Shown piece after piece: positions 3,683 through 34,619 of a DNA stretch of 34,619 nucleotides. Origin of the DNA: Bacillota bacterium. Its GTDB lineage: Bacteria > Bacillota > Desulfitobacteriia > Desulfitobacteriales > Desulfitobacteriaceae. Position 1 is the stretch's first letter. Every line of letters starts with the position of its first letter. The DNA lies in assembly GCA_021811425.1 (NCBI GenBank), contig JAJZPA010000012.1, forward strand, positions 1 to 34,619, written 5' to 3'. A program made the position numbers and the translations under genes. The notes under the pieces were generated by a model. That model saw only the letters and a list, made by a program, of their open reading frames with translations. It made no database searches and was not told the DNA's origin.

Positions 3683-3703
3683 CCTTGCTCCCTCGAACCT
3701 CGC

Positions 3704-5374: not shown

Positions 5375-5413
5375 CAGGTAAGCCTTGCATTCAGGATCCC
5401 CTGCAGCATAACG

Positions 5414-5437: not shown

Positions 5438-5472
5438 CTTCGCTACAATCCATGTTCCAATCGATTCCGAAC

Positions 5473-6105: not shown

Positions 6106-6153
6106 CAGGATCCCCCATTTCTCACCCAAAATAGGCATGAAAGTATGAGCTAT

Positions 6154-6181
6154 ATTATAGCACTATCTTTTGAAAATGCAA
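6154..6181 (-). promoter_or_regulatory. Sigma-A promoter of rex, extended -10
   Basis: TTGCAT and TATAAT with a 16-base spacer; TGC before TATAAT gives an extended -10. The AT-rich stretch upstream (6185-6215) could be an UP element. Confidence 0.7.
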
Positions 6182-6242
6182 TTTATTTCACGAACATTTT
6201 TTTAATTTAGCACAACAATAGGTTTTCCCGATCATTATTAGC

Positions 6243-17397: not shown

Positions 17398-18537
17398 TTA
17401 TCCCCTTAAATGCTTGGCAATCACCAGGCGCTGGATCTGGTTCGTCCCTTCATAAATCTGGGTAATCTTGGCATCCCGCATGAAGCGTTCCACTTTGAAT
17501 TCCTTGCTGTAACCGTACCCGCCAAAAATCTGGACTGCGTCGGTCGTCACTTTAACCGCCGTATCGCTGGCAAACATCTTCGCCATCGAGGCCTCCTTGG
17601 CGTAAGACAGCCCGGCCATGCGCCGAGAAGCCGCTTGATACACCAAAAGCCGCGCAGCCTCAATTTGGGTCGCCATATCCGCCAGCATAAACTGAATCCC
17701 TTGAAAGTTCCCAATGACCTGTTTGAATTGAACCCGCTCTCCGGAGTAAGCAAGAGCCTCATCAAAAGCAGCCTGGGCAATCCCCAAAGCCTGGGCCCCG
17801 ATGCCGATCCTGCCTCCATCCAAGAGGGACATGGCCACCTTAAACCCTTCGCCCTCTGCCCCGAGCCGATTTGCGACTGGAACGAGCGCATCCTCAAAAA
17901 CAAGCTCACAGGTCGAGGAACCATTCAAACCCATTTTTTCTTCTTGTTTGCCAACACGGAAACCCGGTGTATCCTTATCCACCAAAAACGCAGTGATCCC
18001 GCGTGCGCCTTGGCCGCGATCCGTGGAGGCCATTACCGTATACACCGAGGCATACCCCGCATTCGTGATAAAACGCTTGCTGCCATTGAGAACATAATGA
18101 TCTCCCTGGCGCACGGCTGTGGTCTGCAGGCTCGACGCATCTGAGCCTGCATTGGCCTCTGTCAACGCAAAAGCGCCAATAAATTCCCCGCTCGCCAACT
18201 TTGGTAGATACTTTCGTTTCTGCTCCTCTGTACCGAAATAGAGAATCGGAAAGCTCCCGACGGATGTATGAACCGCCAGGATGACCGCCGTCGAGGCACA
18301 CCCCCGTGCGATTTCCTCAAGGGTCAGGATGTAAGAGAGAAAATCCGAACCCGCTCCCCCATACTCCTCTGGGATCGGGATCCCCATTAACCCCAGTTCC
18401 CCCATCTTGCGTATCAATTCCCAAGGAAACTCATGGGTCGCATCCGTAATCACCGCCTGCGGGATCACTTTGTCCTCCACAAAATCCCGCACCATCTTGC
18501 GCATCATCTGTTGATCCTCATTCAACGCAAAATCCAA
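17398..18537 (-). CDS. Acyl-CoA dehydrogenase, short-chain (butyryl-CoA type)
   Basis: FAD enzyme of 379 residues that oxidises (or, with Etf, forms) saturated acyl-CoA at C2-C3. Seen: FALTEANAGSDASS for FAD binding, GSKRFITNAGYA, SLLDGGRIGIGAQALG, the QIFGGYGYSKEF segment, and the catalytic Glu in QIYEGTNQIQRLVIA near residue 364. This canonical set contrasts with the second acyl-CoA dehydrogenase at 27866-29011. It lies 20 bases after the thiolase gene, so the two form an operon. Start ATG at 18537 follows GGGGAGGAGAATG. No crotonase, 3-hydroxyacyl-CoA dehydrogenase or Etf gene is next to it; the Etf pair at 26010-27851 could serve it but sits in another operon. Confidence 0.94.
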   Translation of the reverse strand: MDFALNEDQQMMRKMVRDFVEDKVIPQAVITDATHEFPWELIRKMGELGLMGIPIPEEYGGAGSDFLSYILTLEEIARGCASTAVILAVHTSVGSFPILYFGTEEQKRKYLPKLASGEFIGAFALTEANAGSDASSLQTTAVRQGDHYVLNGSKRFITNAGYASVYTVMASTDRGQGARGITAFLVDKDTPGFRVGKQEEKMGLNGSSTCELVFEDALVPVANRLGAEGEGFKVAMSLLDGGRIGIGAQALGIAQAAFDEALAYSGERVQFKQVIGNFQGIQFMLADMATQIEAARLLVYQAASRRMAGLSYAKEASMAKMFASDTAVKVTTDAVQIFGGYGYSKEFKVERFMRDAKITQIYEGTNQIQRLVIAKHLRG

Positions 18538-18557
18538 ATCATTCTCCTCCCCACGTT

Positions 18558-19739
18558 TTAGCGCACCTCGACCATGATCGCATCCCCTTGCGCCGCACCG
18601 CTGCAGATTGCAGCAATCCCCAGACCCCCACCTCGACGCCTAAGTTCATAGATAAGCGTCATGATGATTCGGGCCCCGCTTGCTCCGATCGGGTGCCCGA
18701 GCGCAATCGCCCCACCGTTGACATTCACCCTTTCCGGATCCCAGTGGGCGATCGTCTGGCTGGTTAGGGCCACCGCCGCAAAGGCCTCATTCACTTCCAA
18801 AAGGTCAATATCCTCAATCTTCATGCCCTTTTGCTTTAACAATTTATTGATCGCAAACCCCGGCGTCGTCGCGATATAGGCCGGTTCCCGTGCCACTGTC
18901 GCATGTCCTAAAATCCTGGCCAATGGCTTTTTGCCGAGCCGTATGGCCTTCTCCTCACTCATCAGCACCAAGGCTCCTGCCCCATCATTCACGCCCGGGG
19001 CGTTTCCCGCTGTGACCGTGCCATCTTTGACAAAGATCGGGGGGAGAGCCGCCATCTTCTCTAGGCTCGTGTCCGCTCGGGGACCTTCATCCACCGCGAA
19101 TACCTTGGTTTGGCCTTTTTTTGGAGGGATATCGATCGGTGCGATTTCCTCCTCAAACCGACCTTCGCGAATGGCCGCCAGGGCGAGGGTTTGCGAACGG
19201 AAAGCAAACTCATCCTGGGCTTCCCGGCTGATGCCATATTCTTTGGCCACCGTCGAACCATGGACGGCCATGTGCACATTGTGGAAAGCACACCACAACC
19301 CATCGTGCACCATGAGATCAATCACACTGTCATTGCCCATACGGTAGCCAAAGCGGGCCTTTTTCAAGACATAGGGCGCATTGGACATGCTCTCCATTCC
19401 TCCGGCCACGATCACCTCCGCGTCCCCGGCTCGGATGATGGTCTCAGCCAACGTCACCGCCCGCAGTCCCGAGGCACATACCTTATTGATCGTCTCCGAA
19501 GTCACTTCCTGGGGAAGCCCCGCCTTAATGCTCGCCTGCCGGGATGGAATCTGCCCCGCTCCTCCCTGGAGCACCATCCCCATTAGGACATTATCCACCA
19601 TATCCCCGGATATCTCCGCCCGCTTGAGAGCCTCGCGAATCACATGCGCCCCCAAATCCACTGCCGGCAAATCCTTAAGACCTCCGCCAAGCACCCCAAA
19701 CGGCGTGCGCGCTGCACTGACAATCACCGCTGTGGTCAT
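18558..19739 (-). CDS. Acetyl-CoA acetyltransferase (thiolase)
   Basis: Joins two acetyl-CoA or cleaves 3-ketoacyl-CoA in the cytoplasm. The nucleophile Cys is in [11 protein letters not shown] (about residue 88), the catalytic His in [11 protein letters not shown] and the second Cys in [12 protein letters not shown], where the usual CIGGGQG is altered to CSGAAQG. Length is 393 residues. I use the ATG at 19739 because GGGAGGG sits eight bases before it; a TTG 24 bases further upstream would overlap that ribosome site. It is first in an operon with the acyl-CoA dehydrogenase. The IS200/IS605 right end and its predicted omegaRNA lie only about 60 bases upstream, so transcription from the element may reach this gene. 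No native promoter was recognised in the remaining gap. Confidence 0.94.
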
Positions 19740-19800
19740 ATACTCATCCCTCCCTTTCCTCAACCAGCGATTAGATTAACATGGTAAATTATTCTCCTTT

Positions 19801-20047: not shown

Positions 20048-21166
20048 TTAACCTGCCAATATCCGCAGACCTTCATTGAGAATATTGATGGCGGCGTTCT
20101 CATCGCGGTCATGAACCGTTCGGCAGACGGGACACTGCCATGAGCGTACATCGAGTGTCAGCATAGGCACGGTATGTCCGCAGACGTGGCATGTCTTAGT
20201 GGATGGATAAAACCGACCGACCGTTACCACCACCCGTCCGTACCAGCGGGCCTTGTAATCCAGCATCGCGTGCAGCATTCCCCATCCGGCATCCTGAATG
20301 GATTTGGCCAACTTTCTGTTTCTGATTAAGTTCTTCACCGATAGATCCTCAATGCACACCACTTGGTTTTCGCGGATGAGCTTTGAGGAAAACTTGTGCA
20401 GCAAATCTTTGCGCTGATTGGCTACCTTTTCATGCTGGCGGGCTACTTTTAACCGTGCCTTTTCCTGATTCTTGCTCCCGTTCTCTTTGCGAGCATAGGC
20501 TCTCTGGAGCCTGATGAGCTTCTGTTCCGCTTTCCGGTAATGCCTGGGGTTTAGAATATGCTCGCCGGTTGAGAGAACGCCCAAGTCCTTGATCCCCAAA
20601 TCCACACCGATTGCGGTCCCCACAGACGGTAAGAGTTCAACCTCCGTTTTACAGACCACGGACACATAATACTCACCACTGGCTGTGCGGCGAACGGTGG
20701 CGTTTAGAATCTTTTCCGGAAACTTCTTCAGCAACTTATCAGTACGGAATTCCACCCAGCCCAGTTTCGGCACTTTGATCGTCCGACACTCCAGATTCAC
20801 GGCAATATTGCCATGCGTGAAGTTCGTCCTGTACGACTGTTTCTTGCCGTGCTTTTTCTTGAAGCGCGGAAAACGGGCGCGACCCTGAAAAAAATTCGCA
20901 TAGGCTTTGTCCAGATCTCTGAGGCTGTTCTGTAAAGCAAACTTATCGACCTCCTGTAACCAGGACGTCTCTTCTTCCTGCTTCATCACGGTCAAACCTG
21001 CGGAACACTGGTTATAGGACAGACTCTTTTTCTCAGCCTTATAAAGTTCCATCCGTGCGGCCAGAAACTTGTTGTAGACATATCGCGCACAACCGATGGT
21101 TTTGTCAATTAAGGTTTTTTGCTCCGCCGTGGGATAAAGCCTTAATCGGTATGCCTTTTCACACAT
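20048..21166 (-). CDS. tnpB: IS605 OrfB / RNA-guided nuclease TnpB
   Basis: A 372-residue TnpB, ancestor type of Cas12. N-terminal helix-turn-helix part (AYRLRLYPTAEQKTLIDKT), then the split RuvC domain: Asp in IGVDLGIKDLG, Glu in VVCIEDLSVKNL, Asp in VHDRDENAAINI. A zinc ribbon (CHVCGH and CPVC) lies between the last two. All three catalytic residues and four cysteines are present and the frame is open, so the nuclease may be functional. Start is the ATG at 21166, preceded by GAGGGGGG, one base after the tnpA stop; an upstream in-frame extension has no support. Known role: cutting the excised donor site to help retain the element. Confidence 0.95.
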   Translation of the reverse strand: MCEKAYRLRLYPTAEQKTLIDKTIGCARYVYNKFLAARMELYKAEKKSLSYNQCSAGLTVMKQEEETSWLQEVDKFALQNSLRDLDKAYANFFQGRARFPRFKKKHGKKQSYRTNFTHGNIAVNLECRTIKVPKLGWVEFRTDKLLKKFPEKILNATVRRTASGEYYVSVVCKTEVELLPSVGTAIGVDLGIKDLGVLSTGEHILNPRHYRKAEQKLIRLQRAYARKENGSKNQEKARLKVARQHEKVANQRKDLLHKFSSKLIRENQVVCIEDLSVKNLIRNRKLAKSIQDAGWGMLHAMLDYKARWYGRVVVTVGRFYPSTKTCHVCGHTVPMLTLDVRSWQCPVCRTVHDRDENAAINILNEGLRILAG

Positions 21167-21167
21167 C

Positions 21168-21478
21168 TTATTCCCCCCTCTCTTTCTGAGATTCAATATA
21201 CTGCCGGACGGCAGTCTCCGAAATTTCACGGACGGATGTTACAAAATAGGACGGATTCCATAAGTGACCGCCCCATAGCCTTTTCTTTAACTCTGGCATC
21301 TCCTTGAACAGCAAGCGAGCCGAATATCCTTTAAGGGTTTTAACGATATCCGGGATAAAATGTTGCGGCGAACAGTCGAGCAGTAAATGCACATGATCAG
21401 GCATTACTTCCATCGTGACAATTTCAAACTTATGTTCGGTGGCAAGTAGACATAACCGCGTCCATGCCTAATTTCCAA
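21168..21478 (-). pseudogene. tnpA: Internally deleted IS200/IS605 transposase TnpA (Y1 HUH)
   Basis: The C-terminal two thirds are clear: HUH motif MPDHVHLLLD, LWGGHLWNPSYF and the nucleophile Tyr in AVRQYIESQ, ending at 21168. Upstream, another frame gives the normal N-terminus (LEIRHGRGYVY from a TTG at 21478, with AGGGGG seven bases before it). The roughly 35-40 codons that should lie between are missing and the two parts are out of frame at about 21445, so this is a deletion plus frameshift rather than a gene start error. An extended -10 promoter TGCTATAAT remains at 21498-21506. Confidence 0.85.
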
Positions 21479-22788: not shown

Positions 22789-23679
22789 TCATGGCAAGAC
22801 ACGAAGAACCGTCCCCGTTGTCCCCGCCGTTATCTTGCCTTTATCATGCCCCCCTAGACTTGCAAACAGTGCTTCTTTCGACCGTGGCAAAGGCGCGTCC
22901 GGCCTCAGCCAGTCCCTGCGCATCAATTCCCCATGCATTTCCACCAACCACGGTAAGGCTAGATCAGCGGCTATGATCGAATCAGGGTGCCGGAATACTT
23001 CCGTGGGAACGCCCGAGGCCACAATCTGCCCATGGTTCATGATCAAGATGTTATCCGCCCAAGCATAGGCTATATCCACATCATGGGTCGAAATGATAAT
23101 GGTTCGTCCAGCCGCAGCCAGGTGATCCAACAACTGCATAAACTCGCGAGCATGCCGGGGATCCAACCAGGCTGTCGGTTCATCAAAGATAATCACTTCC
23201 GGCATCATGGCCAAAATGTCGGCAATCGCCACCCTCTTTTTTTGCCCAAAGCTCAACATGTGGGTTGGCTTGTCCGCTAAATCTTCAATTTCCGTCTCGG
23301 ACATGGCCTTCAAGACCCGTTCTTTCACTTCACGCTTCTCCAGTCCAAGGTTAAGCGGGCCAAACGAGATCTCCTGCAAAACACTGGCTGAGAAAAGTTG
23401 ACTGTCCGGATCCTGGAACACAATCCCCACTCTTGTCCGCAATTCCCGCAGCCCGGCGGCGTTATATACCACCTCTCGTCCATCGTAGCGGATTTTCCCG
23501 CCCGCCGGACGCAGAATCCCGTTGAGATGCAGGAACAGCGTCGATTTACCGGCCCCGTTGGATCCGAGGATAGCCACCTTTTGCCCTTTAGCCACAGCCA
23601 TATCGATTTTCCTTAAGGCCTGGGTGCCATCCGGATAGACGTACTCGACCGCTTCAGTTTCCAAAATAAACGCTGCCAA
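22789..23679 (-). CDS. cbiO: Cobalt ECF transporter ATPase CbiO
   Basis: ATP-binding subunit (296 aa) of the CbiMNQO cobalt importer, on the cytoplasmic face. Walker A GSNGAGKST, Q-loop VFQDPDSQLF, signature LSFGQKKRVAIA, Walker B VIIFDEPTAWLDP (Trp in place of the usual Gly before LDP) and H-loop STHDVDIAY. The start is a TTG at 23679 with GGGAGG nine bases upstream. It is last in cbiM-N-Q-O, 28 bases after cbiQ. The last residues (about TTGTVLRVLP) are encoded by a copy of the dispersed GGGGACGGTTCTTCGTGTC repeat at 22798-22825, so the natural C-terminus was probably replaced or extended by a repeat insertion. Confidence 0.96.
   Translation of the reverse strand: MAAFILETEAVEYVYPDGTQALRKIDMAVAKGQKVAILGSNGAGKSTLFLHLNGILRPAGGKIRYDGREVVYNAAGLRELRTRVGIVFQDPDSQLFSASVLQEISFGPLNLGLEKREVKERVLKAMSETEIEDLADKPTHMLSFGQKKRVAIADILAMMPEVIIFDEPTAWLDPRHAREFMQLLDHLAAAGRTIIISTHDVDIAYAWADNILIMNHGQIVASGVPTEVFRHPDSIIAADLALPWLVEMHGELMRRDWLRPDAPLPRSKEALFASLGGHDKGKITAGTTGTVLRVLP
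22798..22825. repeat. Dispersed short repeat, copy B, inside the cbiO 3' end
   Basis: Minus strand GGGGACGGTTCTTCGTGTC. It matches copy A at 3650-3682 in 16 or more of 19 positions and copy C at 10943-10966 less closely. It supplies codons for the CbiO C-terminal tail. Confidence 0.6.
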
Positions 23680-23707
23680 CGGATAGTCCTCCCTCTAGTG
23701 CACTTGT

Positions 23708-24523
23708 TCAAGTAAAGTTCAACAAGAGTAAACCCAGTTCAATTCCCAGGATCACGGCATAATTCCGTTTTGAAACCGGATATTCTTTTTCCAGGGTTCT
23801 TATTTCTCCTGTGTAATTTCTGGCTGTGAGCGCTGTCGCCAATTCTCCGGCCCGGTGGAAGGAACGCACAAACAGGGAAGAGATGAGCTGACTCAAGGAA
23901 CGAAACGTATTCTTAGCGGAAACATAGCCCAAACGCGACGTCTGGGACATACGGATGAGAGCGGTCGTATCCATCAAGACAAAGATAAAACGGTAGACCA
24001 ACCCCATTAACTCCAAAAAAAGAGAGGGTGCCTTCAACTTTCTCAGCACTGAAATCACTTCCAAGACCGGCGTCGTCAACGACAGGAAATAAAGGCAGGA
24101 AACAGCTCCCAGGGATTTAAAGAAGATAAATCCCGCCTTCATTAAATTCGCCTGACTGGCTCCAACCGTGATGCTCCCAAATGTAAACCCAAATAAGAAG
24201 CCGCCTGGATCGTGAGAGACAGAAAAGGCAATGGTCAACACACCCGTCAGAATAAAGGAAAAAGGGATCATCATAAAGCGAAAGAATTGTCCAACCGGAG
24301 TTCCCGCGCCCTTCGTACTCGCTACGGTCATCAGTAACAGCACTGCCCCAACCACCACCACCGAGGGGGAGATGAGGCAGACAAGCATGGTCGCCAGGGC
24401 AAAGACGAATTTCTCTAAGGGATGAATCTTGATCCAGCGATTGGTATAGGCATACGTATCAAGGTCAAACACACGCTCCTCAACCTTTCTTCGCTTTTGC
24501 CGCTGTGTGTTTGCCTTTGACAT
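23708..24523 (-). CDS. cbiQ: Cobalt ECF transporter transmembrane subunit CbiQ
   Basis: Integral membrane coupling subunit with five or so hydrophobic helices. The N-terminal DTYAYTNRWIKIHPLEKFVFAL is typical of CbiQ, and the cytoplasmic coupling segment MSQTSRLGYVSAKNTFRSL and the later RSFHRAGELATALTAR contact CbiO. The open frame starts at 24523 and would overlap cbiN by 44 bases without a good ribosome site. A GTG at 24472, just after the cbiN stop and preceded by GAGG, gives 254 residues and fits the family start better; I regard it as at least equally likely. Confidence 0.93.
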   Translation of the reverse strand: MSKANTQRQKRRKVEERVFDLDTYAYTNRWIKIHPLEKFVFALATMLVCLISPSVVVVGAVLLLMTVASTKGAGTPVGQFFRFMMIPFSFILTGVLTIAFSVSHDPGGFLFGFTFGSITVGASQANLMKAGFIFFKSLGAVSCLYFLSLTTPVLEVISVLRKLKAPSLFLELMGLVYRFIFVLMDTTALIRMSQTSRLGYVSAKNTFRSLSQLISSLFVRSFHRAGELATALTARNYTGEIRTLEKEYPVSKRNYAVILGIELGLLLLNFT

Positions 24524-24776
24524 AGCCTAAATAATAGAAGACCATCCCACTGCCCAAAGCAGCCTGTAAAGCAAACAGGAAAGACTCTATTTCACCGCTG
24601 GGCGGCTCCCAGAGCGGTTTAAACCACGGCTGGTAATTGGCATCAATGGTGCTAATCGCTTCTCCCGCCTGATCATCGGCCCCGGCGAATTTGGCGTTAT
24701 GCGCAAACACAAGCGGACCGAAGGCCAAGCCGATGACCAAAATCCCCAAAATGACGTTCTTCCAAACCAGTTTCAT
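24480..24776 (-). CDS. cbiN: Cobalt transport accessory protein CbiN
   Basis: Small two-helix membrane protein (98 aa) that works with CbiM for cobalt loading. Helices at about 6-25 ([17 protein letters not shown]) and 68-85 ([20 protein letters not shown]) flank an extracytoplasmic part containing [10 protein letters not shown] and the conserved [21 protein letters not shown] at 24776 overlaps the cbiM stop as ATGA, with GGAGGTG before it, so translation is coupled. Confidence 0.95.
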
Positions 24777-25567
24777 GCTTTCACCTCCGTTTTGCTGGGG
24801 GAGATCTTCTGCCATTCGTCAGCACGGAAAACGGACAAGGCTATTAATTCATTGCGGCTGTAAGCCACTAAGAGATTAAAGACCATCACCGTCAAAAGGC
24901 CTTCACTAATCGCCAGCGGCACTTGCGTGAACGCAAAGATCCCCATAAACTTCAGTGCGGATCCCCATACCCCTCCGCTCGGATCCGGAAAGGCTAAGGC
25001 CAGCTGAAACGAGGTCGTGACGTACGTCATTAAGTCTCCCAGGGTGGCCGCCAGAAAAATACTCAACCAGCGTGGTGCTCTCAGTTTCTGTAGCCCTTTG
25101 TAAATTCCATAAGAGACAAAGGGACCTACAATCGCCATGGAAAACGTATTCGCTCCTAAGGTCGTCAAGCCGCCATGGGCCAATAGCAAGGCTTGGAAGA
25201 TGAGCACGATCATCCCTAAGACCGTCATGGGTGTCGGACCGAACAGAATAGCCCCCAAGCCCACCCCTGTCGGATGAGAACAGCTTCCCGTCACCGAGGG
25301 AATCTTCATCGCCGAGAGCACAAAAGCAAAAGCCCCGGCCATAGCCAATAACATTTTTAAACTTGCACTGTCGGAGACCGTCTTGCGAATCGAACGCATC
25401 CCCCAAATGACAAAAGGAAGCATCACGGCCATCCAGAACGCTGCCCAATTAAACGGCAAAAAACCCTCCATGATATGCATGGCATACACGTTATCGGGCC
25501 ATATAAGGTAAACCATCGCAAGATAGCCGATAGACAATAAGATCAGCTTGACCGTATTTCTCTTCAT
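24773..25567 (-). CDS. cbiM: Cobalt ECF transporter substrate-binding subunit CbiM
   Basis: Membrane S-component (264 aa) that captures Co2+. After an N-terminal hydrophobic segment (about 8-28) ending in [11 protein letters not shown], the mature-type N-terminus MHIMEGFLP supplies the metal-binding Met/His residues of CbiM. Later helices carry [19 protein letters not shown], again with a conserved His, and [22 protein letters not shown]. The N-terminal extension may be cleaved. First gene of the operon controlled by the cobalamin riboswitch; ATG at 25567 follows GGGGAGG. Confidence 0.96.
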
Positions 25568-25685: not shown

Positions 25686-25774
25686 ATGGCTATCTGAGCT
25701 AGCCAGATGACATACGTTGGCTACTCGACATAAGCGACACCTCCCCTAACCTCCGTAGGTTCCTGTGTGACTTC

Positions 25775-25910
25775 AGAACGAGCAGGTCTCCTGGCTTAAG
25801 TTCATCGCTGCCTTACGTCTTCCCGGTTCCCCAGTGACATCCTGTAAGACCGCTCACTATTACAGTGGCGGGACCGCGTCAGATTGGCTGACTTCCCTTT
25901 TTAAATACTT
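25775..25910 (-). promoter_or_regulatory. Cobalamin (B12) riboswitch
   Basis: The B12 box AAGCCAGGAGACCTGC is at 25782-25797. The upstream core includes GCGGTCCCGCCACTGTAA, GGGGAACCGGGAAGACG and AGGCAGCGATGAA, in the order of the class. Adenosylcobalamin binding should lower expression of cbiMNQO. A short hairpin AACCT/AGGTT downstream of the B12 box (about 25749-25762) may belong to the antiterminator. Confidence 0.94.
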
Positions 25911-25959
25911 TCCCTCGAGAAAGTATACTCATTCCGCAACTATGAAGTTTTTCATCTTG

Positions 25960-26009: not shown

Positions 26010-27038
26010 CTACCCACTATCATCCTCGTTTTTCGTTCTCCGAATCTCCTCCAGCAAAGCCTCAACAACTTTCTTGGCATCGTCAGTTACACAATAATCT
26101 GAATAAGCATGGGCCGGGGCCAAGGCATCCCGGTTGACATTTATAATGACGCCGGAATCCTTGATCCCTGCAACATGGTGAGCCGCACCAGAAATCCCGC
26201 AGCCAAGATAGACTTTCGGGCGCACGGTCTTGCCGCTCGTGCCGATCATCGTATGTTCGCCGGCGGTCCAACCTTCGTCAAGTGCCGGGCGCGTACAACC
26301 CACAGCTCCCTGGAGTTCGGCGGCCAACTGCTCCAGCAAGCCCCAATTCTTTTTGCTGCCCATACCATATCCGCCCGCGATGACGACATCCGCCTTTTCC
26401 AATGGCAGACCTGACGGTTCGAACTGAACCACATCCATGATCTCTAGCCGTATATCTTCGTCAAACAGCAGGCTTGAAGCATCCTCCCGGACGATTTCCC
26501 CGCGCCCAACCCGGCGCTCGGTCACGGTAAATGTTCCCGGCTTAATACTCGCCATTTGGGGGCTAGTACTAGGACAGAAGATTTCTCCTAACACTCTTCC
26601 CCCAAACGCCGGTACCTTCATCACCAATTGGCCGTCAGCATTTATATCAAGACCGGTGCAATGAGCTGCGAGGCCGGTACTTAGCCGGGCCGCCAACGTC
26701 GGGGCCAACTCCTCGCCTGCACCGGTCGCGCCAAAGAGAAGGATGTCTGGCTTTTCCCGCTCCACCAGTCGCTGCAGCACCGCAGCATAACTGTCATTTT
26801 GATAATGCTTCAAACGGGGATCATCCACCCAGTACACTTGATCAACTCCATAAGCGCTCAGTTCCTCGGCCAAATCCTCCACTTGATCCCCCAGGAGAAC
26901 GACCGCCACCTCGCCCGAGAGCGCGGACGCGGCTTCGACCAAACGAACCGCCTGTCCTAAAACCTCAATACTTACAGGAGCGAGTTTTCCCTGATTCTGT
27001 TCGACCACAACCCAGATCGCCAATCTTTTTTCTGCCAC
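26010..27038 (-). CDS. etfA: Electron transfer flavoprotein alpha subunit
   Basis: FAD-binding subunit (342 aa) passing electrons between acyl-CoA dehydrogenases and other carriers. The C-terminal FAD domain is clear: VIAGGYGMGSKKNWGLLEQL, GCTRPALDEGW, IGTSGKTVRPKVYLG, CGISGAAHHVAGIKDS and NVNRDALAPAHAYSDY. There is no added ferredoxin domain, unlike CarE. Start GTG at 27038 follows GGGGGTGA. Last gene of the five-gene operon, 15 bases after etfB. Confidence 0.95.
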   Translation of the reverse strand: MAEKRLAIWVVVEQNQGKLAPVSIEVLGQAVRLVEAASALSGEVAVVLLGDQVEDLAEELSAYGVDQVYWVDDPRLKHYQNDSYAAVLQRLVEREKPDILLFGATGAGEELAPTLAARLSTGLAAHCTGLDINADGQLVMKVPAFGGRVLGEIFCPSTSPQMASIKPGTFTVTERRVGRGEIVREDASSLLFDEDIRLEIMDVVQFEPSGLPLEKADVVIAGGYGMGSKKNWGLLEQLAAELQGAVGCTRPALDEGWTAGEHTMIGTSGKTVRPKVYLGCGISGAAHHVAGIKDSGVIINVNRDALAPAHAYSDYCVTDDAKKVVEALLEEIRRTKNEDDSG

Positions 27039-27053
27039 TCCAACTCACCCCCA

Positions 27054-27851
27054 TCAACCCAGGATACCTGCCGAACGGAATATCCCCACGAGGCGCTGAG
27101 CCACTTCCCGTGCCTCCCCTTGAAGGACTTCACCTTTCCGTTTCATGTCCGGCTGGTAAAGCTTCCCTGGCTGCGTCGGTGAACCGGCTAAACCCACTTT
27201 TCCCTTATCCAGGCCCAAATCATTCAGGCTCCAAACGTGGACTGGCTTACCTTGGGCCGCCATAATGCCCATCAGGGAAATATAACGCGGGGTATTCAGC
27301 TCCCGCCGAATCCCCAAAACCAGAGGCAGCCTCCCACGGCTCTCCCGGTAGCCGTTTTCCATCTTGGCCCTCACCGTAGCCCGCCCGTCTGGACTAATCT
27401 CCATCTGAATCACATGGGTTAAATGAGCAAAGCCCAACAGCTCCCCAACCTGAGAAGGAACATGCGCCGTTCCCCCATCCGCACTCGTGCTGCCGCAGAG
27501 CACCAAGGCAAATGGCCCGGCCTTATTGATTGCCTTCGCCAAGACCCGCGAGGTTGCCAAACTGTCTGCTCCCGCAAAGGCCCTGTCACTGCAAAGAAAC
27601 GCTTCATCCGCCCCTATCGCCAGGCCTTCTCTGAAGGTCTCAACAGCGCTGGCAGGAGCCATACCGATTAAGGCCACCCGCCCACCGTGTTGCTCCTTAA
27701 GCTGCAACGCCGCTTCCAAGGCATGCTTATCCTCCGGGTTGATTACGGTCTTCAGCCCTTTCCGGACGAGAATGCCTGTTGCTGGGTCAATCTGAATCTT
27801 ATCATACTGCGCCGGATCCGGCACCGGCTTTAAAAGAACCGCAATCTCCAT
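27054..27851 (-). CDS. etfB: Electron transfer flavoprotein beta subunit
   Basis: Partner of EtfA (265 aa) with nucleotide-binding fold. Seen: IAVLLKPVPDP at the N-terminus, NPEDKHALEAALQLKE, REGLAIGADEAFL, and LCGSTSADGGTAHVPSQVGE. The last segment resembles the DGDTAQVGP motif of bifurcating Etfs but is not identical, so electron bifurcation cannot be claimed. I chose ATG at 27851, with AAAAGGGG eight bases upstream, over the TTG two codons earlier. It begins 14 bases after the acyl-CoA dehydrogenase stop, pointing to a complex with that enzyme. Confidence 0.95.
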   Translation of the reverse strand: MEIAVLLKPVPDPAQYDKIQIDPATGILVRKGLKTVINPEDKHALEAALQLKEQHGGRVALIGMAPASAVETFREGLAIGADEAFLCSDRAFAGADSLATSRVLAKAINKAGPFALVLCGSTSADGGTAHVPSQVGELLGFAHLTHVIQMEISPDGRATVRAKMENGYRESRGRLPLVLGIRRELNTPRYISLMGIMAAQGKPVHVWSLNDLGLDKGKVGLAGSPTQPGKLYQPDMKRKGEVLQGEAREVAQRLVGIFRSAGILG

Positions 27852-27865
27852 CGCCAAATCCCCTT

Positions 27866-29011
27866 TTAGGCGAGCGTCTGCCCCGCGATCACAAGCTGCA
27901 TCACATGCGATGTCCCTCCTGAAGGAATCGTCGCCATCGCATCCCGCAGGTAACGCCCGACCGGGTAATCGTTCATAACCCCGTAGCCGCCCATCAGATC
28001 TATCGTCCGCTTCGCGGAGCGTACAGCGGCCTCGGTTGAGAAGTACTTAGCGGCTGCAATTTCCGCATCACAGTTGGCCCCGGATTCCTTCAACCCGATC
28101 GCTTGGTAGGTGAGTAACCGGGCTGCTTCGTAGTCCACCCGATTCTGCGCAATTTCCAGCTGAATCGCCTGCAACTTGGCAATCGGTTTGCCATAGAGAA
28201 TGCGTTCTTTGGCAAACTTAACCCCTTCTTCCAAACAGCCACGCAGAATCCCCACCGAAATCGCGGACATGCCGGTTCGACCCACTTTGGCAATCGTTGC
28301 CAAAGCCAGCTTTGCCCCATTGCCCGGGGCACCCAAAAGCGCTTCTTCCCCAACTTCGCAGTCATTCAGGAGCAGATCCCCGGTGCCCGAACCTCTGAGG
28401 CCAAATTTGTTTTCCTCCCGTCCCGGAGCAAACCCGGGTGTCCCGGCCTCAAGGATAAAGGCTCCAAAGGCCGGACGCCCTTTCGCATCTTCGCCGGTTC
28501 GCGCCGTAACCACGGTGACATCAGCACTCGAACTATTGGTAATAAAGCACTTGCGCCCATTAAGTACCCAGCGCCCATCTTTAAATTCCGCACTCGTTTG
28601 CTGCCCGCCGACATCAGAGCCTCCTGAGGGTTCCGTCACAGCCAGACCCCCGATTTTCCGGCCTGAGGCTAGATCGGGCAGGTATTTTCGTTTCTGTTCC
28701 TCCGTGCCATAGGCTAGAATCGCTTCCACGCCCAAATGATGCGTCATCAAGATCATGGCAAACCCGGCAGCATGGCGGCTGATTTCTTCCAAAATAATCG
28801 CCCGTTCTGTCAAACCCATACCTGCGCCGCCATATTCCTGCGGCACAAACACACCCGCGAACCCGAGCGTCCCCATCTTCTTGAAGACATCGACGGGGCA
28901 CTCATTGTCCACATCGATCCGGTGGGCGATCGGAAGGACTTCTTTCTCCACAAATTCTCTCACGGCTTTACGCAGCATTTCCTGGGCTTCCGTAAACTTT
29001 AGCTCCGGCAT
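27866..29011 (-). CDS. Acyl-CoA dehydrogenase-family protein lacking the usual catalytic Glu
   Basis: 381 residues with full acyl-CoA dehydrogenase fold: LAVTEPSGGSDVGGQQT for FAD, GRKCFITNSSSAD, KVGRTGMSAISVGI, DLMGGYGVMNDY. The catalytic base position normally read as YEGT is SGGT here (Gly365), checked in the DNA (TCA GGA GGG ACA). The alternative base position used by isovaleryl-CoA and long-chain enzymes (residue before Arg in KVGRTG) is also Gly. It may therefore work mainly as a reductase, use another base, or act on an unusual acyl-CoA. It sits between the HpaB/AbfD-like gene and etfBA, so Etf is the natural partner. ATG at 29011 follows GGAGGAGAG. Confidence 0.9.
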   Translation of the reverse strand: MPELKFTEAQEMLRKAVREFVEKEVLPIAHRIDVDNECPVDVFKKMGTLGFAGVFVPQEYGGAGMGLTERAIILEEISRHAAGFAMILMTHHLGVEAILAYGTEEQKRKYLPDLASGRKIGGLAVTEPSGGSDVGGQQTSAEFKDGRWVLNGRKCFITNSSSADVTVVTARTGEDAKGRPAFGAFILEAGTPGFAPGREENKFGLRGSGTGDLLLNDCEVGEEALLGAPGNGAKLALATIAKVGRTGMSAISVGILRGCLEEGVKFAKERILYGKPIAKLQAIQLEIAQNRVDYEAARLLTYQAIGLKESGANCDAEIAAAKYFSTEAAVRSAKRTIDLMGGYGVMNDYPVGRYLRDAMATIPSGGTSHVMQLVIAGQTLA

Positions 29012-29121
29012 TGTTCTCTCCTCCGATCCTATTCCTTGATTCCTTGAGCTTCTCGCCTAAATCCATAATAACTTAACTCTTCATAAAATTCACTCTCTAG
29101 ATTGTGGTATCCTGCAAATTT

Positions 29122-30582
29122 TTACTTCTTCCCAGGATCCAGAATTTCCTCCTCGATCCCAGCAATCCTCGTTGCATAGGCGGCATACTCCTCAAACGGA
29201 GTTCCGGCGCGTACCACCAACTTCGCCCCATCGGGTGAACCCCCCCCATGCATAGTCCCTGGAACCCCTGCCCCAAGTGTCAGCCATTCCACGAGCCTCG
29301 CAGCCCGCACCCGGCTTTCGGCCGTGACTTTTTGCCCGCCTTTGACATATTTTTGGACCAAGGGCCCAATGTTCGGATCCATAAAGTCTTGATAAGATGG
29401 CAGACATCCTGTCTCTCCGATCCCTCCGGCAATATCCTGGCAGAGACGCTTCGTCTCATAGGGCAAAGTCGCTACCAACACCTTATTGGTGTGGGCAGCC
29501 ACTGAGTCAGCCATCCACACCCCGGCCTCGTGCTGTTTTCCCAGGGCGAGCGCTCCCGCTCCGGCCGTATAAGTGGTCTCATTGTTAAGGGCCATGTCCA
29601 CTAATTTCGGCATAAACGTCTTGGCAGAGAGTCCATTCGTACGCGCCATGAGCATCGCGGCCCCGATCATCACATCACCTTGCCCAGCCACACAGGCCCC
29701 GATGCAGGCCCGATAATTGGCTGTAAAATACTGAATGATCTTGCCGGTATACTTGTACTCTTTGCACATGAAGACTCGCTCCTTGGGTACAAAGACATTC
29801 TCAAACATGAGATAAGCTTGAGTAATCCCGGTTTCCGGGATATCAAACCCCGCTTCGAATTCTCGCGAATCGCTGGCTCTTCGGGCTTCAACAATCGTAA
29901 GCCCTTCGATATCCCTAGGGATCACAAATGCGACGGCACAGTCTTTGTCATCTTCCCCATACCCTGAACCCGGAATAACCATAATCTCATCTGAGGCTGC
30001 AACCCCCGCAATCATCACCTTGGCTCCGCGCACCACGATCCCGTCTTCCCTAACCTCCACCACATGCACATTGCTGTCCGGATCCGGTTGCTGGGATGGC
30101 TTTAAGCTCCGATCCCCTTTCGCATCAGTTAAGCCCCCGGCCACCACGAGCCCTTTCTTTTGAGCTTGAAAAAGCCAATTTTTCAAACGGGCTTGGTAGG
30201 CTGTCCCCATCTCTTCGTCCATGTCATGGGTTACGGCCCAGAGCACATTGGCCGCATTCCAGCCCACACAAGTGCCTCCAGAGCAGGTCCCCGTCATCCG
30301 GTAACTGGCGCGTTTCAGTTTCATGTTGTACAGGGTATCTTCCAGCGAAGTCATCAGGGAATTGAAGCGATGAATCAGTTCACCGTCAAAACTTGACCGG
30401 GTTGTAAAAATGTCCGCCAGCTTCGGATCAGCCACCGCATCAAAAGCGCGGGCATGACTCTCTACCACCCGCCGGGTCGCGGGATGGGTCGTCACATCCT
30501 CGATCCGTTCCCCGAACTTATAAATATTTGGACGCATCCCCTTGAGCACCGTCAGATAGTCTTCGCGAGTTCGCAAAGTCAT
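29122..30582 (-). CDS. HpaB/AbfD-family flavoprotein (4-hydroxybutyryl-CoA dehydratase-like, active site altered)
   Basis: 486 residues, similar along the whole length to 4-hydroxybutyryl-CoA dehydratase/vinylacetyl-CoA isomerase and 4-hydroxyphenylacetate 3-hydroxylase. Family landmarks: KFGERIEDVTTHPATRR, LTDAKGDRSLKPSQQPD, ENVFVPKERVFMCKEY, QGDVMIGAA, LCQDIAGGIG and TMHGGGSP. Compared with the clostridial dehydratase as I recall it, its C99/C103 pair aligns with C100 and C105 (different spacing), H292 becomes Tyr290, Y296 Ile294 and K300 Val298; E257 becomes Gln255 and only C299 (Cys297) is kept. A normal [4Fe-4S] dehydratase site is therefore doubtful. An oxygen-dependent hydroxylase seems odd in an anaerobe, so the reaction is open. 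Second gene of the operon, ATG at 30582 after GGAGGTG. Confidence 0.85.
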   Translation of the reverse strand: MTLRTREDYLTVLKGMRPNIYKFGERIEDVTTHPATRRVVESHARAFDAVADPKLADIFTTRSSFDGELIHRFNSLMTSLEDTLYNMKLKRASYRMTGTCSGGTCVGWNAANVLWAVTHDMDEEMGTAYQARLKNWLFQAQKKGLVVAGGLTDAKGDRSLKPSQQPDPDSNVHVVEVREDGIVVRGAKVMIAGVAASDEIMVIPGSGYGEDDKDCAVAFVIPRDIEGLTIVEARRASDSREFEAGFDIPETGITQAYLMFENVFVPKERVFMCKEYKYTGKIIQYFTANYRACIGACVAGQGDVMIGAAMLMARTNGLSAKTFMPKLVDMALNNETTYTAGAGALALGKQHEAGVWMADSVAAHTNKVLVATLPYETKRLCQDIAGGIGETGCLPSYQDFMDPNIGPLVQKYVKGGQKVTAESRVRAARLVEWLTLGAGVPGTMHGGGSPDGAKLVVRAGTPFEEYAAYATRIAGIEEEILDPGKK

Positions 30583-30633
30583 AATTTCACCTCCGAGTAT
30601 CGTTGATATGTGTCGGTCAGGAAGTCCCGGCTT

Positions 30634-31974
30634 CTATTTTCTTTCATCAAATACCCGTTTTGCCTTGTGCGTAGCCCGCTCCAAGGTATTAGGCGGCAAG
30701 ATCTTCACACGCGGCTTTATGCCCAGAATCTTAAAAATATCTGAAACAACTTCGTGTTCCAGCCTGTCTGCACCCCCATTATATCCCTCGGCCTGCTCGA
30801 CTTCCACCGTCAGTACCGCGAGATGCTTCTCCTCGTTGACCACCAAGCGGTATTCCCCTGTCAGATCTTCATTCTGACGCACAACCTTCTCAATGTCGCT
30901 CGGGAAAACATTGACACCTCGGATGATCAGCATATCGTCCACTCTGCCATGAATTCCGTGAAGCCTTAAGTGTGTGCGCCCACAGCTGCAGGGCTCTGTC
31001 GTATGGGAAACGATATCCCCCGTCCTGAAGCGAATAAGCGGTCGGGCCTTTTTCCTCAGCGAGGTAATCACGAGTTCCCCGCGTTCTCCTTCTTTGACCT
31101 CCTCACCGGTATCCGGATTGAGGACTTCGACCAGGATATGGTCTTCCGCCCAGTGCAGACCGTTCTTGGCCTCACACATCCCGGCACAGGCACCGAAAAT
31201 ATCCGAAAGTCCATAGTAATCGTAGAGTTCTGCACCCCATAGGGCCTCAATACGCTGTCTAGTCTCGGGAATAGACCCTCCCGGCTCCCCGGCCACAAAG
31301 ATCCTCCGCACTGCCAAATCCCGCATTGGATCGATTCCCTGTCCTTGAGCGGTCTCCCCCAAATACCAGGCATAGGAAGGCGTCGTCCAAATCGCCGTCG
31401 GTTTCCACTTCTGAAAGATGTCCAAAAGCCTTTCCGACGGAATGGCACCTGCCCAAATACTGAGCGCACCCACCTTCATGGCCCCCACAACATCCGGTCC
31501 ACCGACAAACAAAGTGAACTGAAGCGAATGGCAATAGATATCCGTCGGCCTTAAGCCTGATGACCAAAACAAACGGGCTTCATAATCCTGCCAGTCTTCA
31601 AAGTCTTGCCAGGTAAATGGCGAGGCGGTTGGCACCCCCGTTGAGCCGCTGGAAGCGGATAAGTAGACCAGATCATCATGGTGGACACAGACCAGATCCC
31701 CATAGGGCGGAACCACTTCTTGCCTTTTTCTCAAAATCTTCTTGTCGATAAAAGGAAACTTCTTTAAGTCATCGAGGCTGTGCAAGTTCTCCGGGGAAAC
31801 ACCGGCTGCCGCGAAGGTTGTGCGATAATAATCCGAGTTGTGATAAGCAAGCTCCACGGTTTCTTGTAAAAGTTTAAGTTGAAGCTCCTTAATCTTTTCC
31901 CGGGGCATCGTCTCTAACTCCTCATCCCAATAAGAAGCATAGCCGTTCCCCCTCCACAATCTGTGGTTCGGCAT
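30634..31974 (-). CDS. Phenylacetate-CoA ligase family acyl/aryl-CoA synthetase
   Basis: AMP-forming CoA ligase of 446 residues, PaaK-like in length and order. P-loop SASSGSTGVPT, adenine site YYGLSDIFGA, RFRTGDI, hinge GRVDDMLIIRGVNVFPSDIE and the C-terminal catalytic Lys in TLERATHKAKRVF. Two cysteines in CSCGRTH are typical of the group. It should activate a carboxylic acid, often aromatic, to its CoA ester. First gene of the sigma-54 operon; ATG at 31974 follows AGGAGGG. The CoA ester is presumably the substrate of the next two genes; its identity is unknown. Confidence 0.9.
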   Translation of the reverse strand: MPNHRLWRGNGYASYWDEELETMPREKIKELQLKLLQETVELAYHNSDYYRTTFAAAGVSPENLHSLDDLKKFPFIDKKILRKRQEVVPPYGDLVCVHHDDLVYLSASSGSTGVPTASPFTWQDFEDWQDYEARLFWSSGLRPTDIYCHSLQFTLFVGGPDVVGAMKVGALSIWAGAIPSERLLDIFQKWKPTAIWTTPSYAWYLGETAQGQGIDPMRDLAVRRIFVAGEPGGSIPETRQRIEALWGAELYDYYGLSDIFGACAGMCEAKNGLHWAEDHILVEVLNPDTGEEVKEGERGELVITSLRKKARPLIRFRTGDIVSHTTEPCSCGRTHLRLHGIHGRVDDMLIIRGVNVFPSDIEKVVRQNEDLTGEYRLVVNEEKHLAVLTVEVEQAEGYNGGADRLEHEVVSDIFKILGIKPRVKILPPNTLERATHKAKRVFDERK

Positions 31975-32020
31975 CTCATTCCCTCCTCTCTATTGTACGA
32001 ACCCCCTGCCATGCTTAGAA

Positions 32021-32036
32021 GCAAATAGCGTGCCAA
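32021..32036 (-). promoter_or_regulatory. Sigma-54 promoter of the CoA ligase operon
   Basis: TTGGCACGCTATTTGC matches the -24/-12 consensus TGGCAC-N5-TTGC at every position. Start of transcription is expected near 32010, about 36 bases before the ligase ATG. Confidence 0.92.
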
Positions 32037-32156: not shown

Positions 32157-33503
32157 TCATGCTTTCATGCTGTACCCTTTCTCCGTTCCAGGCAGCCGCT
32201 GCGTCATGGTGTCCCGACTGAAGAACACACCGAGCGTGCCGACGATCATCCCCACAAAGCAGAGGATGAAGGTCGCCCGATAGGCGTTGACAGGGAAGAT
32301 CTTTCCGACCTTGCCATAGGAATCGAGAATGACCCCCATAATTTGCTGGAAGAGCGCTCCCCCGATGAAAAACCAGGGATTATACACGCCAACGGCCGTA
32401 CCCGCAACCTGTTTTGGGAGGAGTTCGGTGATTTGGGCATAGGTCACAACATAGAATCCTCCCGTGAAGCCCATCGCGAAGAAGAGGATACTGAGCAGAG
32501 TCGCATTGAGCGTCCCTGGCGCGAGCACCAAGAGAAGCCAAAGCAACGTGTAAGTTCCTGAACCCAACAACACCACGGTCCGGCGGTTATGGAAAATTCG
32601 ATCCGATAAGACCCCTGCGATGGGGCAGCCGAAAATCATGCCGACAGCCCACATCATTAGGACATTGCTCGCCACCTGTTTGCTAAACCCATAGGTGTCC
32701 ATCATATAGGGAACGCCCCACAGACCCTGAAAACCCATCATGGTCCCATAGACAAAGAACGCATAAATCGCTAAGGGAAAATAGTTGCGACTGGACACGG
32801 CCATTTTCATAGCTCTCCCGGGTGGGATTTCCTCTTCAACCGTCGCACTTGCGCTTGTACTGTCTGCTTGCACCCCGTCGATAGCATCGATGGTCGGCAG
32901 TCCCAGGTCCTGCGGTTTGTTGCGCACTAAGGTAAACGTCAAAATGGCAAGTACGACCGTGACTCCGCCCAGGTAATAAAACGACTCCCTCCAGCCTGCC
33001 TGGGCAACGAGCCAGGCCAAAGGAGCTGAAGCCGCCAAGGCGCCAATATTTCCAACCGTCAGCAAAGCACCCGTTAACGTCGCAAACTCATGCTTTCTAA
33101 ACCATACCGCCAAAATCTTCATCACAGGAATATAAACCACTGCCACCCCGATCCCCATGATGCCCCTGCCGACCAAGGCAATGTCATAAGACTGGGCGGC
33201 TCCAAATAAAACCGTCCCCACTCCCGCGATGAGGATGAAGATGCTGACCGCCCGCCGTGGGCCGAGGTAATCGGACAACAGCCCGGACGGAAACTGCATG
33301 ACTGCGTAAGGGTAAAAATAAGCAGCGGACAACAACCCTAGGGAGGCCGCATTGATATGGAATGTCTTAACCAGTTCAGGGGAGACCACAGCTGGAGCCA
33401 ACCGATCAAAATAAACAAAGAAATAGACCAACGCCAACATACCATAAGCCAACCAACGGTAGGACAAAACCTTTCTGCGCGTGGTATCCGTTATGACCGC
33501 CAT
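32157..33503 (-). CDS. MFS transporter (12-helix, organic anion type)
   Basis: 448-residue major facilitator with about 12 membrane helices and a longer central loop (about residues 205-235, IDGVQADSTSASATVEEE). The N-terminal part YFDRLAPAVVSPEL and the loop motif SDYLGPRRAVS (2-3 loop) place it near the anion:cation symporter/oxalate-formate antiporter group. It likely imports the acid that the divergently functioning neighbours degrade, since it shares a sigma-54 promoter type and dyad with the ligase operon. ATG at 33503 follows GGAGGG. Substrate not assignable. Confidence 0.9.
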   Translation of the reverse strand: MAVITDTTRRKVLSYRWLAYGMLALVYFFVYFDRLAPAVVSPELVKTFHINAASLGLLSAAYFYPYAVMQFPSGLLSDYLGPRRAVSIFILIAGVGTVLFGAAQSYDIALVGRGIMGIGVAVVYIPVMKILAVWFRKHEFATLTGALLTVGNIGALAASAPLAWLVAQAGWRESFYYLGGVTVVLAILTFTLVRNKPQDLGLPTIDAIDGVQADSTSASATVEEEIPPGRAMKMAVSSRNYFPLAIYAFFVYGTMMGFQGLWGVPYMMDTYGFSKQVASNVLMMWAVGMIFGCPIAGVLSDRIFHNRRTVVLLGSGTYTLLWLLLVLAPGTLNATLLSILFFAMGFTGGFYVVTYAQITELLPKQVAGTAVGVYNPWFFIGGALFQQIMGVILDSYGKVGKIFPVNAYRATFILCFVGMIVGTLGVFFSRDTMTQRLPGTEKGYSMKA

Positions 33504-33590: not shown

Positions 33591-33631
33591 AAAAAGCCAC
33601 ACCCCCTTTCGCGTCTTGCCAAAGAGGGTGT
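33591..33631 (-). terminator. Terminator overlapping the MFS transcription start
   Basis: Stem ACACCCTCTTT / AAAGGGGGTGT (one G-U pair) with 11-base loop, then GGCTTTTT on the minus strand. It would stop transcripts coming from the activator gene upstream. The first arm ends before the predicted MFS start near 33620, so MFS transcripts would not form it. Confidence 0.7.
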
Positions 33632-33646
33632 GCAAAGTCTGTGCCA
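33632..33646 (-). promoter_or_regulatory. Sigma-54 promoter of the MFS gene
   Basis: TGGCACAGACTTTGC, a full match to TGGCAC-N5-TTGC. The start of transcription would be near 33620, giving a leader of about 115 bases. Confidence 0.9.
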
Positions 33647-33913: not shown

Positions 33914-34619
33914 TTACGAGAATATGCCATGTTTTTTAAGTTTGTCATAAAAACTACGCCGATTGATCCCGAGCAGGCGCATCGCCAGCGATTTGTTGTT
34001 GCGCGCCTTCTCAAGTGCGAAAAGGATGGTTTCCTTTTCCGTCTGTTCCAGAATCGTCCTTAAATCCAGGCTACCCTGCATCCGTTCGGTTTGGGAATCT
34101 TGGCCATGGCGTAAATACGGGGGCAGCTCATCAACCGTAATCAAGCTGTTGTCACAGAGAAGCACTGCATGTTGAACCACATTTTGCAATTCGCGCACAT
34201 TTCCCGGCCAATGGTAGGCCAGAAAAATCTGCTTCACCTTTTCCGAGAGCCTGATCAGACCCTTCCCCTGCTTTTCACTGTACACTCCTATGAAATACTC
34301 GGCAAACAGCAAGACATCCTCTTGACGCTCCCTGAGCGGTGGTATACTGATAGTTACGACATTGAGCCGATAGTAAAGATCCTCTCGAAATGCGTCATTC
34401 TGAATCAGCGTCTCCAAATCCCGATGGGTCGCCGACAGGATGCGGATATCTACCGGAATAGGACGAGTGCCGCCCACTCTTTCGATCTCTTTTTCTTGTA
34501 CCGCGCGCAGGATTTTAGATTGCATCGCCAAGTTCATATCGCCAATTTCATCGAGGAAGAGCGTTCCTCCATCGGCCATTTCGAACTTGCCTATTTTGCC
34601 GCCCCGCTTGGCTCCGGTA
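33914..34619 (-). CDS. Sigma-54 dependent transcriptional activator (5' part outside window)
   Basis: The window holds the C-terminal 234 residues. It begins within the GAFTGA loop (TGAKRGGKIGKFE), then Walker B LFLDEIGDMNLAMQ, GGTRPIPVDIRILSATHRDLE, RLNVVTISIPPLRER, WPGNVRELQNVVQHA and a Fis-type helix-turn-helix (NKSLAMRLLGINRRSFYDKLK). The sensory domain is outside the window. Position next to two sigma-54 promoters with shared dyads makes it the best candidate activator of the MFS gene and the CoA ligase operon. Codons were read upstream of the first Met at 34579 because the frame stays open to the window edge. Confidence 0.95.
   Translation of the reverse strand, partial: TGAKRGGKIGKFEMADGGTLFLDEIGDMNLAMQSKILRAVQEKEIERVGGTRPIPVDIRILSATHRDLETLIQNDAFREDLYYRLNVVTISIPPLRERQEDVLLFAEYFIGVYSEKQGKGLIRLSEKVKQIFLAYHWPGNVRELQNVVQHAVLLCDNSLITVDELPPYLRHGQDSQTERMQGSLDLRTILEQTEKETILFALEKARNNKSLAMRLLGINRRSFYDKLKKHGIFS

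Follow-up and report, generated by a model that had tools for sequence, protein, structure and literature searches.

The window analyzed here, a stretch of 34,619 nucleotides from an anaerobic, Desulfosporosinus-like Bacillota bacterium (contig JAJZPA010000012.1), contains a five-gene operon that encodes a PaaK-type acyl-CoA ligase, an HpaB-like protein with the fold of 4-hydroxybutyryl-CoA dehydratase (AbfD), a member of the acyl-CoA dehydrogenase (ACAD) family, and the two subunits, EtfB and EtfA, of an electron-transfer flavoprotein (Etf). Both the HpaB-like protein and the ACAD belong to distinct clades in which catalytic residues of the respective families are replaced throughout. The combination of an AbfD fold, an ACAD fold and an Etf with these active sites appears to be new, being described neither by the available family models nor in open-access papers. 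The explanation that we favor, tentatively, is a sigma-54-activated module in which an acid would be converted to its CoA ester, the ester would be acted upon by a radical lyase or isomerase, and the resulting enoyl-CoA would be reduced as an electron sink, with propionyl-CoA as the favored product.

Conservation and distribution of the operon

The five genes follow one another on the minus strand, in the order ligase, HpaB-like protein, ACAD, EtfB, EtfA, with gaps of 51, 110, 14 and 15 bases, as described in the original prediction. The etfB open reading frame opens with TTG, and the internal ATG at position 27851, from which the gap of 14 bases is counted, is the likely start. The same order is kept in three genomes from two families (G000, G001 and G039), with protein identities across the five-gene set of 93–99% in G001, from the same genus, and 61–83% in G039, from another family; this conservation is far beyond chance. 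In G039 (L034), the HpaB and ACAD genes share a four-base overlap. A 97%-identical copy is present in a metagenome-assembled genome (MAG) labelled Desulfosporosinus sp. (L053), as in G001 (L004). Thus, the neighborhood comparison proposed with the original prediction showed that the order recurs in related genomes; the Peptococcaceae frame assumed there proved too narrow, as the cluster extends into other families and phyla.

The clade of HpaB-like proteins to which the window protein belongs (hereafter the HpaB clade) is represented in 3 of 83 genomes of the class, in 12 of 398 genomes of the phylum, all belonging to different genera, and in 18 of 395 genomes of a second phylum, as well as in named MAGs of Bacteroidales, Zixibacteria, Aquificota and Thermoplasmatota. 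A record labelled 'DPANN' may be misbinned because L072 comes from the same sample (S016). Permuted or partial gene sets were found in Clostridia, Desulfobacterota, Bacteroidales, Aquificota and other MAGs, including the orders ACAD-EtfB-EtfA-HpaB-ligase (L073, L074, L075, L158, L161) and HpaB-ACAD-EtfB-EtfA (L069, L070, L187, L189, L190), and the full order with a probable frameshift (L162). No study of this gene combination was found in the open-access literature, nor was one reached via 3-mercaptopropionate, 3-sulfopropionate or isobutyrate, and a published assignment elsewhere is possible.

The HpaB-like protein has an AbfD fold with a rebuilt active site

Among proteins in the PDB, the HpaB-like protein is most similar to AbfD (1u8v, 310 bits), and its AlphaFold model (mean predicted local distance difference test score 92.4) superimposes on that structure with a template modeling (TM) score of 0.94, in support of the earlier notion that an AbfD-related enzyme is inserted in the operon. 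AbfD is the textbook FAD and [4Fe-4S] enzyme that breaks an unactivated C–H bond through a ketyl radical, and its residues E257, Y296, K300 and E455 function as catalytic acids or bases. The window protein shares with AbfD the fold, the length, a conserved KGDR motif, the three cluster cysteines and the CoA-ester context, but is only about 36% identical to it.

When AbfD residues were mapped onto 52 aligned sequences of the HpaB clade (one of them a fragment), the cluster ligands C99, C103 and C299 were found to be kept as C100, C105 and C297, with an extra residue between the first two cysteines (C-x4-C). The fourth AbfD ligand, H292, is Tyr in all 52 sequences (Y290 in the window protein), and E257 is replaced by Gln, Y296 by Ile, K300 by Val and E455 by a gap, again in 52 of 52. 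A new motif, E390-T391-G392-C393 (ETGC), is invariant in the clade, and a C-x-G-[GA]-x-C motif is present in all sequences but two, one of which is cut by the contig end. The three retained cysteines point to a predicted [4Fe-4S] cluster, for which the invariant C393 is a candidate replacement ligand; C293 was also considered and ruled out, as this position varies (A, Y, G, P) among orthologues. Clade members are 49–100% identical to the window protein and all contain ETGC, whereas AbfD-type paralogues are at most 40% identical and have neither feature; in the tree, a branch with full support (100) divides the clade from the remaining sequences. Because the residues differ, the clade is separate and the break in identity is clean, this AbfD-fold protein, judged by its sequence, is not to be classed as a 4-hydroxybutyryl-CoA dehydratase. 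A separate, large clade that keeps the AbfD cofactor frame while the named acid/base residues are replaced implies a different reaction performed by the same machinery.

The ACAD lacks the catalytic glutamate

In the window ACAD, PSGGTS is found where YEGTS is expected, so that the catalytic Glu is missing. The Glu of the (Y)EGT motif is absent in all 31 ACADs of this clade (Gly in 24, Ala in 5, Ser in 1, Asp in 1), in which Arg70 and Arg153 are new and invariant, and Cys155 and Tyr273 nearly so. The Glu-less ACADs form a single clade (support 100/100) with subgroups that mirror the HpaB tree, whereas ACADs encoded beside AbfD-type paralogues retain the Glu. Among 61 relatives, a Glu-less ACAD (E ≤ 1e-100) was detected only in the three carriers of the HpaB clade. 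In other carriers, such an ACAD can be encoded away from the HpaB gene (L119, L120, L121, L123), and it was searched for and not found in the Zixibacteria carriers. The original suggestion of two active-site variants is therefore borne out for both enzymes and across both clades, suggestive of unusual chemistry. Near the unlinked ACAD-EtfBA genes of L119 (positions 1–7000, PH28_bin88) lies an operon encoding an aldolase-like protein, an acylating acetaldehyde dehydrogenase, a QRPTase/MoCF fusion, a BenE transporter, a 482-residue protein without a Pfam match and a ferredoxin/BFD protein.

The nearest NCBIfam models of the ACAD and EtfA (360 and 260 bits, both below the cut-off) are those of acryloyl-CoA reductase subunits; for the AcrCAB enzyme of the Clostridium propionicum type, scores fall below the equivalog cut-offs for all three subunits (360/640, 260/600 and 167/475 bits). 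The window ACAD also invites comparison with 3-sulfinopropionyl-CoA desulfinase, in which an ACAD fold goes with an altered base and a CoA-ester substrate; the desulfinase model gave 215 bits, a lower score than that of five other models of the family.

The Etf and the ligase

The top five PDB matches of both EtfA and EtfB are CarDE, LctBC, CdEtf (5ol2), 7koe and the 4kpu Etf, and the DRAF(A/G)GAD motif is conserved, as DRAFAGAD. The known or proposed bifurcating function of these closest relatives, together with the kept motif, suggests that EtfBA is bifurcating as well, which makes the electron sink once proposed for the operon a likely arrangement. EtfA aligns only with residues 70–392 of CarE and, in agreement with the original prediction, has no ferredoxin domain.

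The best PDB matches of the ligase are PaaK (4r1l, 288 bits) and 2-hydroxyisobutyryl-CoA synthetase (6hdw, 269 bits). Orthologues with 56–99% identity, one copy each, are present in 12 of 23 genomes with the HpaB clade. Elsewhere, the ligase is replaced by a FadX-type CoA-transferase (L057, L058), a CaiB-type transferase (L150), a Cat2-type transferase (L194) or the VorBAC oxidoreductase (L189, L190), all of which are routes to an acyl-CoA.

Promoters, regulator and flanking genes

The original prediction placed the operon behind a single sigma-54 promoter. There are two exact sites, ahead of the operon and of the gene of an MFS transporter, respectively (Table 1). At one mismatch or fewer, the window contains 2 sites against 1.3 expected, which alone is not above chance; both sites, however, are exact and upstream of genes, and both are kept in G001 (with the ligase site identical), and G039 has an exact site ahead of the ligase gene. 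Only the C-terminal part of the PAS-type enhancer-binding regulator falls inside the window, and its orthologue in G001 is complete, with 608 residues including PAS; similar regulators are encoded close to the module in L069, L187, L158, L055 and L057. The operon is thus probably sigma-54-switchable, in support of the inducible CoA-ester operon first proposed. The MFS protein is the probable importer of the substrate, and in a Syntrophaceae MAG (L058), an MFS gene whose product is 49% identical to it adjoins the HpaB orthologue.

Directly downstream of etfA lies the cbiMNQO cobalt importer, which, together with the cobalamin riboswitch ahead of it, is possibly linked to the operon functionally. 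Outside the module, on the minus strand, are a canonical ACAD (YEGT) followed by a thiolase (17398–19763) and an IS605 OrfB/TnpB-type transposase gene (20048–21229). No tandem repeats were found in a scan, and counts in sigma-70 and terminator scans were not above chance.

Table 1 Features of the operon and its surroundings in the window.
Feature	Coordinates	Strand	Evidence
PaaK-type AMP-forming acyl-CoA ligase, 446 residues	30634-31974	-	Pfam AMP-binding + AMP-binding_C_2
HpaB-like protein, predicted AbfD-fold flavin/[4Fe-4S] type, 486 residues	29122-30582	-	Pfam HpaB_N + HpaB
ACAD-family enzyme without canonical catalytic Glu, 381 residues	27866-29011	-	Pfam, three ACAD domains
EtfB, bifurcating-type sequence SDRAFAGADSLATS	27054-27857	-	Pfam ETF
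EtfA without N-terminal ferredoxin domain, 342 residues	26010-27038	-	Pfam ETF + ETF_alpha
Sigma-54 promoter TGGCACGCTATTTGCT ahead of ligase gene	32020-32035	-	exact match to TGGCAC-N5-TTGCW
MFS transporter	32157-33503	-	Pfam MFS_1
Sigma-54 promoter TGGCACAGACTTTGCA ahead of MFS gene	33631-33646	-	exact match to TGGCAC-N5-TTGCW
PAS-type sigma-54 enhancer-binding regulator, C-terminal part	33914-34579	-	Pfam
Cobalamin riboswitch ahead of cbiMNQO	25764-25947	-	Rfam RF00174, 107.6 bits
cbiMNQO cobalt importer	22789-25567	-	CbiM/CbiQ matches

Proposed pathway

From the observed gene content, clade-wide residue changes, co-occurrence, promoters and predicted fold, we infer an order of reactions, radical chemistry, a direction of the ACAD reaction and a product as follows. 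Judging by their families, the MFS protein would import a small carboxylic acid and the ligase would convert it to the CoA thioester. The HpaB-like protein, as its fold and cysteines suggest, may then act on the thioester as a flavin/Fe-S radical lyase or isomerase and form an alpha,beta-unsaturated acyl-CoA, at a putative [4Fe-4S] site in which the three cysteines are kept and the fourth ligand and the acid/base residues have been rebuilt. Finally, given the Etf type and the nearest families, the Glu-less ACAD with EtfBA would reduce the enoyl-CoA, possibly coupled to ferredoxin reduction, so that this step would serve as the electron sink and propionyl-CoA would be the favored product.

The gene neighborhoods share a common theme, namely, a small carboxylate or 2-oxo precursor that becomes an acyl-CoA. 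Transporters near HpaB-clade genes include MFS, SSS (L073), CitMHS_2, TctABC-like, TRAP, BCCT, SsuABC/MetNIQ and PurT-like types; the PurT-like permease, which has no Pfam match (336 bits to 7tak), is a neighbor of the HpaB clade in four lineages (L055, L072, L158, L194). Proteins of the aldehyde:ferredoxin oxidoreductase (AOR) type adjoin seven HpaB-clade copies (L147, L149, L150, L152, L157, L187, L194), and in L152 and L157, an AbfD-type paralogue lies beside the new HpaB type. MmdA, MeaB and CbiM are encoded on the same strand near several HpaB-clade copies, and CbiM-type importers that are not orthologous are encoded next to the module in G039 (L034) and next to the HpaB gene in G126 (L152). 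A B12-dependent acyl-CoA mutase was found in all 16 carriers tested compared to 33 of 58 non-carrier relatives. These associations weakly favor an exit via propionyl-CoA and methylmalonyl-CoA.

Several points weigh against the proposed pathway. With the Glu, the ACAD has also lost the residue that usually donates the proton in reduction, which makes the direction, and even the nature, of the ACAD reaction uncertain. The fourth ligand of the cluster was not identified in the HpaB-like sequences. HpaB-clade genes often occur without ACAD or Etf genes nearby (Zixibacteria, L147–L150, L163–L167), so that the reduction step is not universal, and the wide variety of transporters may mean that substrates differ between subclades. 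Support for the propionyl/methylmalonyl-CoA exit is weak because the mutase controls come from one lineage only. Finally, the pathway has been deduced from sequences and models.

Alternative substrates and reactions

A special case of the proposed pathway, in which the leaving group is named, is C–S cleavage: the HpaB-like protein would free a thiol, sulfide or sulfite from an organosulfur acid (3-methylthiopropionate, 3-mercaptopropionate, 3-sulfopropionate or similar), and ACAD-EtfBA would reduce acryloyl-CoA. We consider this unlikely, if the least so of the alternatives. In G134, an HpaB-ligase gene pair is flanked by CysK and an SsuA-family ABC transporter, followed by a MetY-type enzyme and LarE; in G205, the pair lies between MetY-MetQNI and a mercaptopyruvate sulfurtransferase-like protein, SsuABC-type genes and CysK, with the HpaB gene overlapping metI; and in G745, the arrangement MetQNI-HpaB-ligase is seen again. 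This sulfur-assimilation context is the only one that names an element, and C–S cleavage also accords with the acryloyl-CoA reductases nearest to the ACAD and EtfA and with the B12 mutases of the carriers; furthermore, the route of 3-sulfopropionate use in Bilophila is stated to be still to be investigated (PMC11489063). However, the context is limited to one side clade and 3 of the 63 HpaB-clade loci (L163, L164, L167), with HpaB proteins 49–54% identical to that of the window, and is therefore not directly transferable to the window operon. At these loci, the HpaB-ligase pair stands alone, with no ACAD or Etf, no sulfur gene adjoins the window operon, and beta-elimination of a thiol is not obviously in need of a radical enzyme.

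Short branched-chain or related acids (isobutyrate, 2-methylbutyrate, isovalerate), with CoA esters oxidised or isomerised toward propionyl-CoA, are also improbable substrates, slightly more so. In L189 and L190, genes for a TRAP transporter, an alanine-dehydrogenase-like protein and VorBAC directly precede HpaB-ACAD-EtfBA, and the VorB-type 2-oxoacid:ferredoxin oxidoreductase scores 542 bits, above the cut-off; amino acids or 2-oxoacids would apparently enter the same pathway here. Liv-type ABC transporters near L151, L154 and L162 (read from sequence), the SSS symporter in L073, the similarity of the ligase to 2-hydroxyisobutyryl-CoA synthetase, and the MeaB, CbiM and mutase links point the same way. 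Nevertheless, known ACADs for branched-chain substrates use the catalytic Glu, which is lost in 31 of 31 members here, and AbfD-type enzymes have no known role in these pathways.

The original prediction allowed for an aromatic route, with caffeate and cinnamate among the substrates to be tried, and reduction of an aromatic enoate of the caffeyl-CoA or cinnamoyl-CoA type is indeed brought to mind by the carABCDE operon of Acetobacterium woodii, in which ligase, ACAD, EtfB and EtfA genes occur together, by the closeness of the Etf to CarDE, and by the activity of PaaK-type ligases on aryl acids. The window operon differs from carABCDE in having an extra AbfD-fold enzyme, no CarA and an EtfA without the ferredoxin domain; its Glu-less ACAD is not closest to CarC, which is only the 17th PDB match (240 bits; best match, 320 bits). 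Enoyl-CoA reduction does not need the HpaB-like protein, which is nevertheless the most widely recurring member, so that the aromatic route, which leaves unexplained both why the HpaB clade is there and why it occurs without ACAD, and which sits poorly with partner transporters and activating enzymes for varied small carboxylates, appears quite improbable.

Further candidates were considered and rejected. A gamma-butyrobetaine substrate is suggested by a single locus (L185), where a CaiT-like BCCT transporter adjoins an HpaB-clade copy. The bbu cluster (PMC8364193), with the gamma-butyrobetainyl-CoA TMA-lyase BbuA, CoA-transferases, a ferredoxin and a thioesterase, resembles the present case in the idea of a redox-neutral flavin lyase acting on an acyl-CoA and in the BCCT transporter, but it contains no AbfD-fold protein, PaaK ligase or Etf. 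The benzene 'Magic' cluster consists of different genes, and AbfD is cited there only as an analogy (PMC13101534). For dehydroxylation of shikimate or quinate in the rumen, an idea taken from general knowledge, nothing was found in the open-access literature. Three HpaB-clade copies belong to a genome that is related to, or the same as, Clostridiales PH28_bin88 (G870, L184 and L185; G061, L055), and one of them is the copy beside the BCCT transporter.

A 4-hydroxybutyryl-CoA dehydratase/vinylacetyl-CoA isomerase pathway, for which the original prediction listed 4-hydroxybutyrate and vinylacetate, is very improbable, even though AbfD is the closest solved structure: one cluster ligand and all the named acid/base residues are replaced throughout the clade, and G000 and G001 have separate AbfD-type paralogues in addition to the HpaB-clade member. 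The genomic contexts differ as well, with Cat2-type CoA-transferases at 12 of 35 AbfD-type loci compared to 1 of 63 HpaB-clade loci and thiolases at 14 of 35 compared to 4 of 63. An O2-dependent flavin monooxygenase, as the Pfam family name HpaB would have it, can be practically dismissed, given the 108 bits obtained with HpaB oxygenases, against 310 with AbfD, the lack of an HpaC reductase in the operon, the anaerobic hosts and the Fe-S-type cysteines.

Implications

The ACAD clade, from which the hallmark catalytic residue of the family is gone, spreads together with the HpaB clade across phyla in anaerobic settings, which likely reflects an anaerobic conversion of carbon, and possibly of sulfur, that is not yet assigned. 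A bolder proposition, which we regard as doubtful, is that the HpaB clade represents anaerobic flavin/[4Fe-4S] radical lyases of a new class, which would split C–X bonds (C–S in at least one branch) in acids activated as CoA esters, with the Glu-less ACAD-Etf as a dedicated bifurcating enoyl-CoA reductase; this would amount to a previously unseen respiration of organosulfur or related compounds in sulfate reducers, rumen Bacteroidales and subsurface lineages. The operon being compact and probably inducible, its function is directly testable.

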